From: Lachnospiraceae bacterium
GTDB lineage: Bacteria > Bacillota > Clostridia > Lachnospirales > Lachnospiraceae
DNA: 64,000 nt
Reading direction: 5' to 3'
Assembly (NCBI GenBank): GCA_017624235.1
Contig: JAGANL010000050.1
Span: 1-64,000, forward strand
The position numbers and the translations under genes were made by a program. Positions within the stretch are counted from its first letter, which is position 1. Every line of letters starts with the position of its first letter. The notes under the pieces were generated by a model. That model searched no databases, was not told the DNA's origin, and saw only the letters and a program-made list of their open reading frames with translations. Below are positions 1-59,134 of the stretch, piece by piece.

Positions 1-137
1 TCAGACCAGAGATTTGCCATCCGACTTCCTTCAGATTCCACCTCACGATGGACACCCTTGTCTTTGGCTGTATCCTTCCCACTACTAGGGCGGATTAGGG
101 ACTTTCACCCATTAGAAACGTGCGCCGCAAGGCGCAC
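1..137 (-). mobile_element. Group II intron, class C-like, 5' end only (runs off the left edge)
   Basis: Read on the minus strand, the segment begins GTGCGCC and continues with AATGGGTGAAAGTCCC, then AAGGGTGTCC and GGAATCTGAAGGAAG, ending at the edge with CTCTGGTCTGA. These are the conserved 5' end and domain I blocks of bacterial group II intron RNA, and the arrangement fits class C (IIC) introns. The first intron base should be position 137. The intron-encoded reverse transcriptase and the catalytic domain V would lie left of the window and are not visible. The element sits 9 nt behind an intrinsic terminator hairpin on the same strand, which is the known target preference of class C introns. 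Family identity rests on the motifs; class assignment also uses the target site. Confidence 0.85.
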
Positions 138-4536: not shown

Positions 4537-6042
4537 TTACTGAATTACCATATTCGTGTATCCCATCAGGCTCTCATCCACTGCTCTGGCAGCCTCCCGT
4601 CCTTCGCGGATGGCCCACACGACAAGAGACTGTCCTCTGTGCATATCCCCTGCGGTAAAGACGTTCTCTGCACTGGTCTTATAAGCTCCCTCTTCGGTGG
4701 CCACATTGGTTCTGTGGTTTACATTCACCTTAAAGGCATCCGTAACGTACTTCTGGCTGCCCAGGAAACCTGCCGCAATGAGAACGATTTCCGCCTCCAG
4801 AACCTTTTCGCTTCCGGCTACCTCCTTCATATTCATGCGACCTGTTTCCTCATCCTTCTCCCAGGTCAGCTTCACGATTTTCACACCCTTCAGGCAGCCG
4901 TTCTTATCCTTGATAAACTCCTTGACCGTGGATTCATAGATACGCGGGTCATGTCCGAATACGGCAATGGCTTCCTCCTGACCATAATCGGTTTTGCACA
5001 CCTTCGGCCACTCCGGCCATGGATTGTTCTCCGCACGCTCGTCCGGTGCCTTCGGCATCATTTCGATCTGGGTGACGGATTTGCAGCCATGACGGATGAC
5101 GGTTCCCACACAGTCATTTCCGGTATCACCGCCGCCGATGATTATGACGTTTTTGCCTTTGGCATTCACATATTTTCCATCTGCGAAGTTGGAATCCAAA
5201 AGGCTTTTCGTATTCTGACTTAAAAAATCCACCGCAAAGTAAATTCCCTTCGCATCCCGGCCCGGTGCCTGGATATCTCTCGGATTGGAGGCTCCGCAGG
5301 CCAGAATGACACGGTCATACTCTGCCAGAATCTTAGCGGCCTTCACGTCCTTTCCGACATCCGTATTGGTTACAAAGGTCACGCCTTCTTCTTCCATAAT
5401 TTTAATCTTTCGCTCAATCACGCTCTTTTCCAGCTTCATATTCGGAATGCCATACATGAGCAGTCCGCCCACACGGTCATGCCGCTCATAAACCGTTACC
5501 GAATGTCCTCTTTTGTTGAGCTGGTCTGCTGCCGCCAGTCCGGACGGGCCGCTGCCGATGACAGCCACCTTTTTTCCGGTGCGTACCTTTGGAGGATCTG
5601 CTTTGGCATAGCCCTGCTCGTAGGCATTCTCAATAATGGCATATTCGTTTTCCTTAGTGGAAACCGGATCTCCGTTCAGCCCGCAGGTGCAGGCTGCTTC
5701 ACAAAGTGCCGGACAAACTCTGGAGGTAAACTCCGGAAAGTTATTCGTCTTTTTCAGACGGTTGTATGCCTGCTTCCAGTTTCCTGTATATACTAAATCA
5801 TTCCATTCCGGTACGAGATTGTGGAGCGGACAGCCCGATGCCATGCCGCAGATCATCATGCCTGCCTGACAGAACGGGACACCGCATTCCATACAACGCG
5901 CCCCCTGAAGCCTCTGCTTATCCATCGGGAGATGCTCATGGAATTCCTGAAAGTGCCTGATTCTGGATTTCGGTGCTTCCGCCTTGGAAACCACTCTCTC
6001 ATATTCTAAAAATCCTGTTGGTTTTCCCATCTTGATTACCAT
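4537..6042 (-). CDS. gltD: Glutamate synthase (NADPH) small subunit
   Basis: The beta subunit of glutamate synthase, which passes electrons from NADPH through FAD and iron-sulfur clusters to the large subunit so that 2-oxoglutarate plus glutamine give two glutamate. The N-terminus carries the cluster-binding cysteines (CMECGVPFC, a CPLHN motif, and VCPALCEAACTCG). FAD binding follows at VIGSGPSGLAA and NADPH binding at IIGGGDTGND. About 500 residues, normal for the family. It lies 38 nt behind gltB as the second gene of the operon and ends at a terminator. The start is uncertain between ATG 6042 and ATG 6030 (MGKPTGFLEY). The latter matches the usual family N-terminus; the GGAAAGG site is closer to the former. 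Confidence 0.95.
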   Translation of the reverse strand: MVIKMGKPTGFLEYERVVSKAEAPKSRIRHFQEFHEHLPMDKQRLQGARCMECGVPFCQAGMMICGMASGCPLHNLVPEWNDLVYTGNWKQAYNRLKKTNNFPEFTSRVCPALCEAACTCGLNGDPVSTKENEYAIIENAYEQGYAKADPPKVRTGKKVAVIGSGPSGLAAADQLNKRGHSVTVYERHDRVGGLLMYGIPNMKLEKSVIERKIKIMEEEGVTFVTNTDVGKDVKAAKILAEYDRVILACGASNPRDIQAPGRDAKGIYFAVDFLSQNTKSLLDSNFADGKYVNAKGKNVIIIGGGDTGNDCVGTVIRHGCKSVTQIEMMPKAPDERAENNPWPEWPKVCKTDYGQEEAIAVFGHDPRIYESTVKEFIKDKNGCLKGVKIVKLTWEKDEETGRMNMKEVAGSEKVLEAEIVLIAAGFLGSQKYVTDAFKVNVNHRTNVATEEGAYKTSAENVFTAGDMHRGQSLVVWAIREGREAARAVDESLMGYTNMVIQ

Positions 6043-13156: not shown

Positions 13157-13174
13157 TTTTCCTTGAAATAAAAT

Positions 13175-13302
13175 AACACGCCAGGGGAGCTTATTGCTGA
13201 GATGGAATGATTCATTCCGGACCCTCATTACTTGATCCGGTTAATACCGGCGTAAGGAGGCATTTACGGCCCCTCTTTGCGTATTGCTAAGGAGGTTTTT
13301 TT
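13175..13302 (+). promoter_or_regulatory. TPP (THI-box) riboswitch with translational expression platform
   Basis: The aptamer shows the family signatures: GGGGAGC, GCTGAGATGG, ACCCTC, then TTGATCCGG and TAATACCGGCGTAAGGA. P1 is ACGCC (13178-13182) with GGCGT (13249-13253). In the platform, CCCCTCTTT (13271-13278) can pair with the true ribosome binding site AAGGAGG (13289-13295). A second AAGGAGG at 13254-13260 abuts P1, and the aptamer 5' strand ACGCCAGGGG can pair with CCCC...GCGT. This gives a plausible switch that hides the ribosome binding site when TPP is bound. No terminator is seen, so control is probably translational. Confidence 0.95.
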
Positions 13303-26081: not shown

Positions 26082-26390
26082 CAGCCTGTAGCAGTTCAGC
26101 CCTCGCTCAGCCGTCGTTCTCCCTGCCCCGGGCTGCCGTTGGTGTGCAATGACCGCATACGGACTGGAGTTTTCTAAACAGAGCATGAAAGCGTTGACAA
26201 CCGACCGGGGCGTCTTCCATGTGCTTCCGTGCACAGGGAAGACTAAAATCGGCATCCATGCCGATTTTTCCCTCCGTATTGGGATGCTCTGTTAAGAAAA
26301 TTCACAGTCCTTCTGCAGGTCATTGCACACCAACGGCAGCCCGGGGCAGGGAGAACGACGGCTGAGCGAGGGCTGAACTGCTACAGGCTG
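26082..26390 (+). repeat. Long-hairpin element, copy A (309 bp)
   Basis: Arms 26082-26154 and 26318-26390 are a perfect 73-bp inverted repeat. Between them is the conserved head shared with two other loci: GGACTGGAGTTTTCTAA, a helix ACAGAGCA / TGCTCTGT, a variable strand of about 19 nt, CCGGGG, a hairpin GTCTTCC..GTGC..GCAC..GGAAGAC, a second hairpin AAAATCGGCA / TGCCGATTTT, then CCC and AAGAAAA..CAGTCC. The arms show no open frame with a ribosome binding site. The element fills the divergent gap between the iron operon and the glycerol-1-phosphate dehydrogenase gene, with the head oriented towards the latter. It could be a structured RNA or a small palindromic mobile element. Family unknown to me. 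Confidence 0.85.
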
Positions 26391-50468: not shown

Positions 50469-50746
50469 GTCCAGCCCATGCCGGGAACCGTCCTCCCTCC
50501 TGCGCTGCAAAGAAAATTTCGGGACATACAGCAGGACTGAGCGTTTTCTTAATGGAGCATTCAACACACAGGGGAAAATCGGCACGGATGCCGATTTTAG
50601 GCGCCACGTGCAAGGATGCACATGGGCGCCGCCCCGAACGGCTGTCACATAGGCTTCTGCTCCATTTAGAAAACTCCAGTCCGAATGTCGTCCCCAAATT
50701 TTCTTTGCGGCGCAGGAGGGAGGACGGTTCCCGGCATGGGCCGGAC
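50469..50746 (-). repeat. Long-hairpin element, copy B (278 bp)
   Basis: Arms 50469-50525 and 50690-50746 pair at 54 of 57 positions. The head, read on the minus strand, aligns with copies A and C: GGACTGGAGTTTTCTAA, helix ATGGAGCA / TGCTCCAT, variable strand of about 21 nt, CGGGG, hairpin GGCGCC..GTGCA..TGCAC..GGCGCC, hairpin AAAATCGGCA / TGCCGATTTT, CCCC, AAGAAAAC..CAGTCC. Every head helix differs from copies A and C by compensated changes. The copy starts 6 nt after the DHH gene stop (50753) and lies between it and glnS, oriented like both genes. Plus-strand ORFs across it are by-products. Confidence 0.85.
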
Positions 50747-58831: not shown

Positions 58832-59134
58832 AAATTTTATAGAAGGTCAGCCGTCCTGCCCCGTCTGCGCCCTCGCTGCTCCACAGCAAAAATCTGAATA
58901 CGACATTCGGACTGGAGTTTTCTAAATAGAGCACCCGAATTTTGGCATCCGTCCGGGGCGGCGTCCATGTGCATCCATGCACACGACGCCTAAAATCGGC
59001 ATCCGTGCCGATTTTTCCCTGGGCTATGAATGCTCTATTAAGAAAACGCACAGTCCTCCTGTAAGTATTCAGATTTTTGCTGTGGAGCAGCGAGGGCGCA
59101 GACGGGGCGGGACGGCTGACCTTCTATAAAATTT
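58832..59134 (+). repeat. Long-hairpin element, copy C (303 bp)
   Basis: Arms 58832-58901 and 59065-59134 pair at 69 of 70 positions; the one difference would be a U-G wobble in a plus-strand RNA. The head: GGACTG (58909-58914) with CAGTCC (59051-59056), ATAGAGCA (58926-58933) with TGCTCTAT (59031-59038), hairpin GGCGTC..GTGCA..TGCAC..GACGCC (58960-58990), hairpin AAAATCGGCA / TGCCGATTTT (58992-59015). It lies in the divergent gap between the DUF6106 gene and the next plus-strand gene, oriented towards the latter, and ends just before that gene's promoter. Confidence 0.85.

Follow-up and report, generated by a model that had tools for sequence, protein, structure and literature searches.

What is the long hairpin that recurs in a genome of a Lachnospiraceae bacterium? 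The stretch of DNA analysed here (the window) comprises positions 1 to 64,000 of contig JAGANL010000050.1. A sequence-only reading of the window had described three copies of a hairpin with long inverted arms around a common head. It had recognised no named family and had offered a structured RNA, a non-autonomous mobile element, or a retron-like template. The parts of the three copies are as follows (RNA strand).

26082..26390, minus: copy 1, complete foldback element (TwoAYGGAY head and two arms), from arm pairing and fold
26154..26317, minus: copy 1 head, RF01731, 85.0 bits
26082..26153, strand not assigned: copy 1 arm, the 3′ arm of the RNA, 72/72 positions paired with the opposite arm
26319..26390, strand not assigned: copy 1 arm, the 5′ arm of the RNA, 72/72 paired
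26253..26260, minus: copy 1 first hexaloop and closing pair, CATGGATG on the RNA strand, of the CsrA type CANGGANG, from sequence reading and motif counts
26224..26231, minus: copy 1 second hexaloop and closing pair, CACGGAAG on the RNA strand, from sequence reading and motif counts
50469..50746, plus: copy 2, complete foldback element, 57 arm positions aligned and 3 of them mismatched (arm alignment)
50527..50689, plus: copy 2 head, RF01731, 80.7 bits
58832..59134, minus: copy 3, complete foldback element, for which 16 bp replace 318 in the congener G001 (site comparison)
58902..59063, minus: copy 3 head, RF01731, 87.0 bits

A TwoAYGGAY head between long arms

The arm alignments and Rfam matches showed that long inverted repeats around a common head are real at all three sites. 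It was found that the head is a named family after all, TwoAYGGAY (RF01731). The three heads match the model end to end, over all 168 positions, at 85.0, 80.7, and 87.0 bits for copies 1 to 3 (gathering score, 43 bits), and their membership in RF01731 is beyond reasonable doubt. Since Rfam models the strand opposite to the one first read, the RNA lies on the minus strand at copies 1 and 3 and on the plus strand at copy 2. The arms of copy 1 had been called a perfect repeat of 73 bp; there is indeed no mismatch, but 72 Watson-Crick pairs, not 73, lie outside the Rfam boundaries. The arm counts first given for copy 2 (54 identities and 3 mismatches) and copy 3 (70-nt arms with one mismatch, 99% complementary) were reproduced. 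Folded alone on the Rfam strand, copy 1 as an RNA reaches -249.8 kcal/mol, compared with -107.4 ± 4.9 for 100 shuffled sequences. Copies 1 and 3 are free of overlapping ORFs of at least 100 aa, the longest one over copy 1 being 84 aa. Among the three window copies, an upstream promoter-like match on the RNA strand was found for copy 1 only, and it is weak. As for the retron-like template, no observation speaks for it: the retron reverse transcriptase domain is absent from the six proteins flanking the window copies, two of which have no Pfam match. Elsewhere in the window are a TPP riboswitch (13173-13275, plus strand, 70.6 bits) and the edge of a group II intron (RF02001, D1-D4-3; 1-52, minus strand), cut by the window start.

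Is the head kept as a structured RNA? Covariation was assessed on 34 of the 36 full copies of this genome (L045 and L055 were left out). In this set, 98.7% of 1390 cells are paired, and 18 of 41 pairs have changes on both sides (77 such cells), compared with at most 46.8% paired, 6 pairs, and 11 cells in slid-structure controls. This strong covariation agrees with the structured, RNA-like head that had been suspected. G.U pairs are very few even within the head. A T.T mismatch in the basal helix is retained in most copies in the alignments. I take its persistence, which homogenisation would tend to erase, as a sign of selection on the head, and the head is most likely maintained by selection. 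The two-hairpin organisation with AYGGAY-type loops that defines the family was found, with the Y positions relaxed (A-N-GGA-N). ANGGAN loops closed by a C-G pair, with the other positions free, occur in 36/36 first hairpins and 34/35 second hairpins of this genome. The GGA motifs of the two loops are 25-36 nt apart (median 26), and in 11 copies the second hairpin has a third CANGGANG in its 3′ strand. Pentaloops that lack GGA, for example ACGAT, are frequent in three other carrier genomes (G009, G023, and G024). One G023 copy (C32:6547-6732) has an extra nested hairpin in its second hairpin; this adds about 20 nt and gives the impression of a foldback inserted into the loop.

Is the window exceptional? 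It is not: instead of three copies, the assembly of this genome (G000; 2.33 Mb in 51 contigs, 80% complete) has 37 RF01731 matches, 36 of them above the cut-off and one a fragment, and blastn found one further partial copy on contig C4. Inverted arms of 48-86 aligned positions with 0-8 mismatches are present on every full copy whose two flanks lie on the contig, 35 in all (L055, with its head at a contig edge, and the fragment L066 are not counted, and L067 was not used). Six copies (L036, L038, L057, L060, L061, and L064) have arms free of mismatch and gap. In seven other genomes, arms of at least 15 paired bases adjoin the head in 50 of 53 testable copies; this set took in 54 of the 57 matches outside G000, three partial ones being omitted, and one of the 54 has no flank to test. 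On named GTDB contigs, 111 of 122 pattern matches among the stretches listed have arms, against 10 of 111 for the control. The 11 matches failing the arm criterion comprise five chance-like ones with a poor inner helix, two at contig edges, three narrow misses, and one genuine case. The genuine case, L228 of Lachnospiraceae bacterium 28-4 (5249-5414), is a strong RF01731 head (117.8 bits) with no detectable arms, the one clear exception. The longest arms were seen in G328 (about 200 nt) and in one copy of G035 (about 220 nt). Since the hairpin is missing as a whole from the congener at four of the six sites compared (see below), the long arms are an integral part of the element.

The arms had been called private to each copy. 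They do differ between copies, yet a weak consensus is shared over 35 copies, with a mean identity of 0.47 (range 0.23-0.82, the closest pair being at 0.82) against about 0.28 for shuffled arms without realignment. Head identity between copies is 0.78 (0.83 for the head core). Within copies, 2201 of 2300 arm positions (about 96%) form Watson-Crick pairs. Thus, the arms share a weak consensus, with about half of the positions varying from copy to copy, and stay paired within each copy. The element departs from TwoAYGGAY as originally described (Weinberg et al. 2010, PMC2864571) in that the Rfam model ends at the base of the head, without the long arms, and the accessible part of that paper does not describe the copy number or the lineage-specific spread. 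Nor did the accessible parts of the literature on the family yield a description of long arms or amplification. The head is already known; what is added here is the long covarying arms, the finding that one lineage has amplified the element to dozens of copies, and the genome-scale link to CsrA and motility presented below.

Spread, unoccupied sites, and neighbouring genes

The element is almost certainly an amplified foldback repeat of about 300 bp. Against the 37 copies of G000, 2 were detected in the congener G001. Six G000 sites were compared with G001. At four of them (C2:19883, C2:21216, C3:33574, and window copy 3) the congener has both flanks without the hairpin, with 16-55 bp in place of 318-339; at C2:24171 and C3:21058, only the left flank aligned. 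Because neither arm is present at the four G001 sites, a simple inverted duplication of local sequence, which would have spoken against a functional element, was rejected there. The unoccupied sites suggest insertion without proving it, since on their own they could reflect either a gain or a loss. In the midpoint-rooted tree built from 164 heads, a single clade (support 0.705) unites the 36 of G000. Single clades were also formed by 19 G005 heads, 7 G009 heads, and 4 Kineothrix heads, and those of G023, JAIDPH, and CAMWMS are mixed. The single G000 clade, the four of six sites unoccupied in the congener, and the lack of an ORF of at least 100 aa over copies 1 and 3 favour the earlier idea of a non-autonomous, hairpin-like dispersed repeat.

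What could have moved the copies? Like MITEs and other foldback elements, the element is short, multi-copy, and intergenic, with inverted ends and no plausible gene. Unlike them, it has arms that covary copy by copy in this genome and no fixed terminal sequences, and it has neither a clear target duplication nor a known partner transposase (Y1 alone was searched). The longest direct repeats at the element ends average 3.97, compared with 3.70 ± 0.15 for permuted partners; a few copies have repeats of 7-8 bp, and there is no clear target duplication. REP elements with RAYT (Y1) transposases are likewise intergenic palindromic repeats in tens of copies. REPs are far shorter than the roughly 300 bp of the element, and a REP/RAYT origin was rejected since this assembly has no Y1 transposase. 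The Y1 transposase (PF01797) has no match in G000 (assembly 80% complete), G001, G023, or G032, and it is present in the carriers G005, G009, G024, and G035. Some mechanism of mobility would have spread the copies.

The same observations raise the possibility of a selfish, MITE-like foldback DNA element whose cruciform or single-stranded hairpin is the substrate of a transposase or recombinase. Its head would be kept for recognition as a DNA hairpin, and its CsrA-like loops would be incidental. The lineage-specific clades, the unoccupied sites, the lack of an orientation bias, the arms without G.U bias, and the scarcity of G.U pairs even in the head all suit this explanation. It accounts poorly for a CsrA-type core kept in two separate loops while the N positions vary, and for the near-confinement of the element to genomes with CsrA and flagellin. 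Moreover, no enzyme was found for it, the Y1 transposase being absent from G000 and three other carriers, and no clear target duplication. I regard it as a serious possibility that nevertheless falls on the improbable side.

Does the element serve the gene next to it? In Rfam, RF01731 carries the type label Cis-reg, with its function unknown. In contrast, the accessible part of the original description scores TwoAYGGAY as probably an RNA and probably not cis-regulatory, and reports it from the human gut, γ-Proteobacteria, and Clostridiales (PMC2864571). A cis-regulatory RNA of the downstream gene would agree with the Rfam label. It would also agree with two recurrences. In two genera, the same short-chain dehydrogenase-like gene follows a copy with identical register and orientation: the copies are C2:21216 in G000 (L037) and C29:30086 in G023 (L078). 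In addition, rpsF lies downstream on the same strand of one copy each in G000 and G005, at differing distances. The upstream sides of the C2:21216 and C29:30086 copies are unrelated. G001 has no copy at the C2:21216 site, which counts against such a role. Among 91 copies from 8 genomes, no gene family was consistently found as a neighbour. With simple ORF calls for 32 of the 37 G000 copies, the orientations relative to flanking genes are balanced: 11 copies have the same orientation and 11 the opposite one, while 8 have divergent and 2 have convergent genes around them. On the balanced orientation and the changing neighbours, cis-regulation was rejected and is considered very improbable.

Carriage by phages or plasmids was also rejected: a 191-base query of the head matched no phage or plasmid record. 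Of two pattern scans of viral contigs, one gave no match and the other five, four of which have no adjoining arms and one of which lies at a contig edge; neither of the two that were scanned against Rfam contains RF01731.

Two features of the arrangement of copies were observed in passing. In G035, contigs C5, C9, C10, C87, and C88 begin or end at the element or within 20 nt of it, as if recent, near-identical copies had broken the assembly. In several species, pairs of copies stand back to back on opposite strands with their 5′ sides facing and their heads about 100-300 nt apart (L232:3130-3730, L223:5818-6394, L176:1268-1773, G009 C33:53805-54433 and C47:139778-140356, G062 C123:25808-26314, and G389 C152:70082-70502). 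A shared divergent promoter or a paired insertion is possible.

Complementarity of the arms

What keeps the arms paired while their sequences change? If selection acted on the RNA of the Rfam strand, G.U mismatches should outnumber A.C mismatches. In this genome there are 38 G.U and 33 A.C arm mismatches, which is no G.U excess. Over eight genomes there are 131 and 103 (p = 0.08; 50 of the 54 copies outside G000 were taken in), and this slight G.U excess counts against template switching. In the 111 arm-bearing copies listed from named GTDB contigs, the counts are 207 G.U and 271 A.C (p = 0.004, for related sequences that are not independent). In the 20 closest pairs of copies, 249 compensated changes were found against 117 single ones, and 120 of the 249 are transversions; three of the pairs involve L044, whose arm indel inflates the single changes. 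Since a transversion cannot pass through a G.U pair, the compensated transversions support template switching. I therefore consider it somewhat probable, from these sequence comparisons, that template switching during replication is the main keeper of arm pairing. The selection that had been deduced from the good preservation of the copies fits the head, while the arms point more to homogenisation at the DNA level than to selection on RNA.

According to the accessible text of PMC7202029, quasipalindromes of E. coli are known to undergo template switching; that of PMC8794818 proposes that the process gives rise to RNA hairpins and maintains them. Like the quasipalindromes homogenised in this way, the arms of the element stay complementary while both change, transversions included. 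Unlike those treated in the accessible text of the two papers, the element has arms of far greater length, which enclose a conserved RNA head. With dozens of long hairpins per genome, it offers a natural set for measuring the maintenance of inverted repeats by template switching.

Long, nearly perfect, copy-specific arms might also suggest guide-like double-stranded RNA directed against phages or other genes. However, no second match to the outer arms of copy 1 was found in their own genome (40 of the 48 candidates were scored), and neither copy 1 nor copy 3, the two that were tested, has arms matching a phage record. A guide-like role was rejected on these grounds, and I give it hardly any credence.

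Carriers, CsrA, and a possible decoy

Which genomes carry the element? Among 61 relatives there are 8 carriers, all in the family of this genome (f1), and 65 of 397 genomes of that family are carriers. In the family census, at most six candidates per genome were scored with strict filters, so an apparent absence may be a missed copy, and copy numbers above six could not be recorded. A pattern scan of GTDB contigs gave at least 118 stretches. The 80 listed have mostly Lachnospiraceae, Acetatifactor, Roseburia, or Eubacterium titles, with a few others (e.g., Flavobacteriales and Metabacillus). The poor-helix matches in other taxa look like chance. An initial sequence pattern had given no matches in genome contigs.

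CsrA was found above the cut-off in 62 of the 65 carriers and in 146 of the 332 non-carriers (Fisher p = 3e-16, kinship ignored), and flagellin in 64 and 149, respectively (p = 2e-18, kinship ignored). Thus, within the family sample, the element is nearly confined to genomes with CsrA and flagellin. Since the two proteins co-occur in 206 of the 397 genomes, the data do not separate them. Three carriers have no detected CsrA; flagellin is present in two of them (G193 and G382) and is likewise missing from the third (G343). Since G193 and G382 are 93% and 91% complete, missing sequence may account for the difference between CsrA and flagellin. Hfq (PF17209) was useless as a contrast protein, with none of the 397 family genomes above the cut-off and a single sub-threshold hit.

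In G000, one ORF with a CsrA domain was found (58.7 bits), which was also compared with solved CsrA chains. This sole match, a 124-aa ORF at L134:4950-5324 on contig C18, encodes a CsrA-like protein that is long and divergent, and a flagellin gene follows closely downstream. The congener has a protein of this kind together with a CsrA of standard score. The leader of one flagellin gene contains an ACAAGGAGG Shine-Dalgarno sequence, which is not diagnostic of a CsrA site.

How might these observations be connected? I propose that a foldback repeat of about 300 bp, whose arms extend the basal helix of the TwoAYGGAY head, was amplified within a Lachnospiraceae-type lineage. The Rfam strand would be transcribed and fold into a long rod with two adjacent C-ANGGAN-G hexaloops, which one CsrA dimer could bridge. 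The summed copies might then act as a distributed CsrA decoy, a Csr-type sponge spread over the genome, as opposed to one concentrated CsrB-like RNA. With the head under selection, the arms would drift, and template switching within the hairpin (quasipalindrome correction) would be the main process that restores their pairing copy by copy. The match of the ANGGAN loops to the CsrA/RsmE hexaloop type counts for such a decoy, as do the frequency of CsrA among the carriers and the CsrA-like ORF beside the flagellin gene in G000. Against it count the GGA-less pentaloops of G009, G023, and G024, the three carriers without detected CsrA, the arm-less L228 head, and the equally good fit of flagellin. 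The balanced orientation also counts against it, since read-through would give the non-binding strand as often, and so does the single, weak promoter-like match among the three window copies. For the binding of CsrA to the head RNA, predicted from the loops, I see the chances as evenly balanced, and a physiological CsrA sponge is doubtful. The reading as a whole, that of a lineage-amplified foldback repeat whose RNA acts as a dispersed CsrA decoy while its arms are re-paired by template switching, is tentative, with slightly less in its favour than against. Its strongest form, a self-spreading RNA sponge of motile Lachnospiraceae in which copy number (2 in the congener, 37 here) would tune free CsrA while template switching continually rewrites the arms, is unlikely.

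The accessible text of PMC4894983 gives the CANGGANG hexaloop as a high-affinity CsrA/RsmE type. That of PMC4333381 reports that RMfam matched TwoAYGGAY to the CsrA motif, and proposes CsrA sequestration as a testable hypothesis. As far as found, this is the only functional proposal in print for a family that has been without an explained function since 2010. The element resembles sponges of the CsrB/CsrC/RsmZ type in its GGA motifs in CANGGANG-type hexaloops and in the presence of CsrA in its host genomes. It differs in having two such loops per element, dispersed over dozens of loci, and its transcription and CsrA binding are predicted. The titles and abstract openings of the papers listed gave no account of a dispersed CsrA-sponge repeat.

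The fit of flagellin leaves room for a partner other than CsrA, with which the RNA would function in motile Lachnospiraceae, the CsrA link merely reflecting csrA travelling with flagellar genes. Flagellin is slightly more frequent than CsrA in carriers (64/65 and 62/65), the two co-occur in 206 genomes, and GGA is absent from the loops of some subfamilies. Nevertheless, the loops match the CANGGANG hexaloop type, and the two carriers with flagellin and no detected CsrA are the incomplete genomes G193 and G382 (93% and 91%), in which sequence may be missing. I consider such a partner distinctly unlikely. A CsrA decoy is open to functional tests in named carrier strains such as Kineothrix alysoides KNHs209, in which, as in Lachnospiraceae bacterium 28-4, RF01731 was confirmed.
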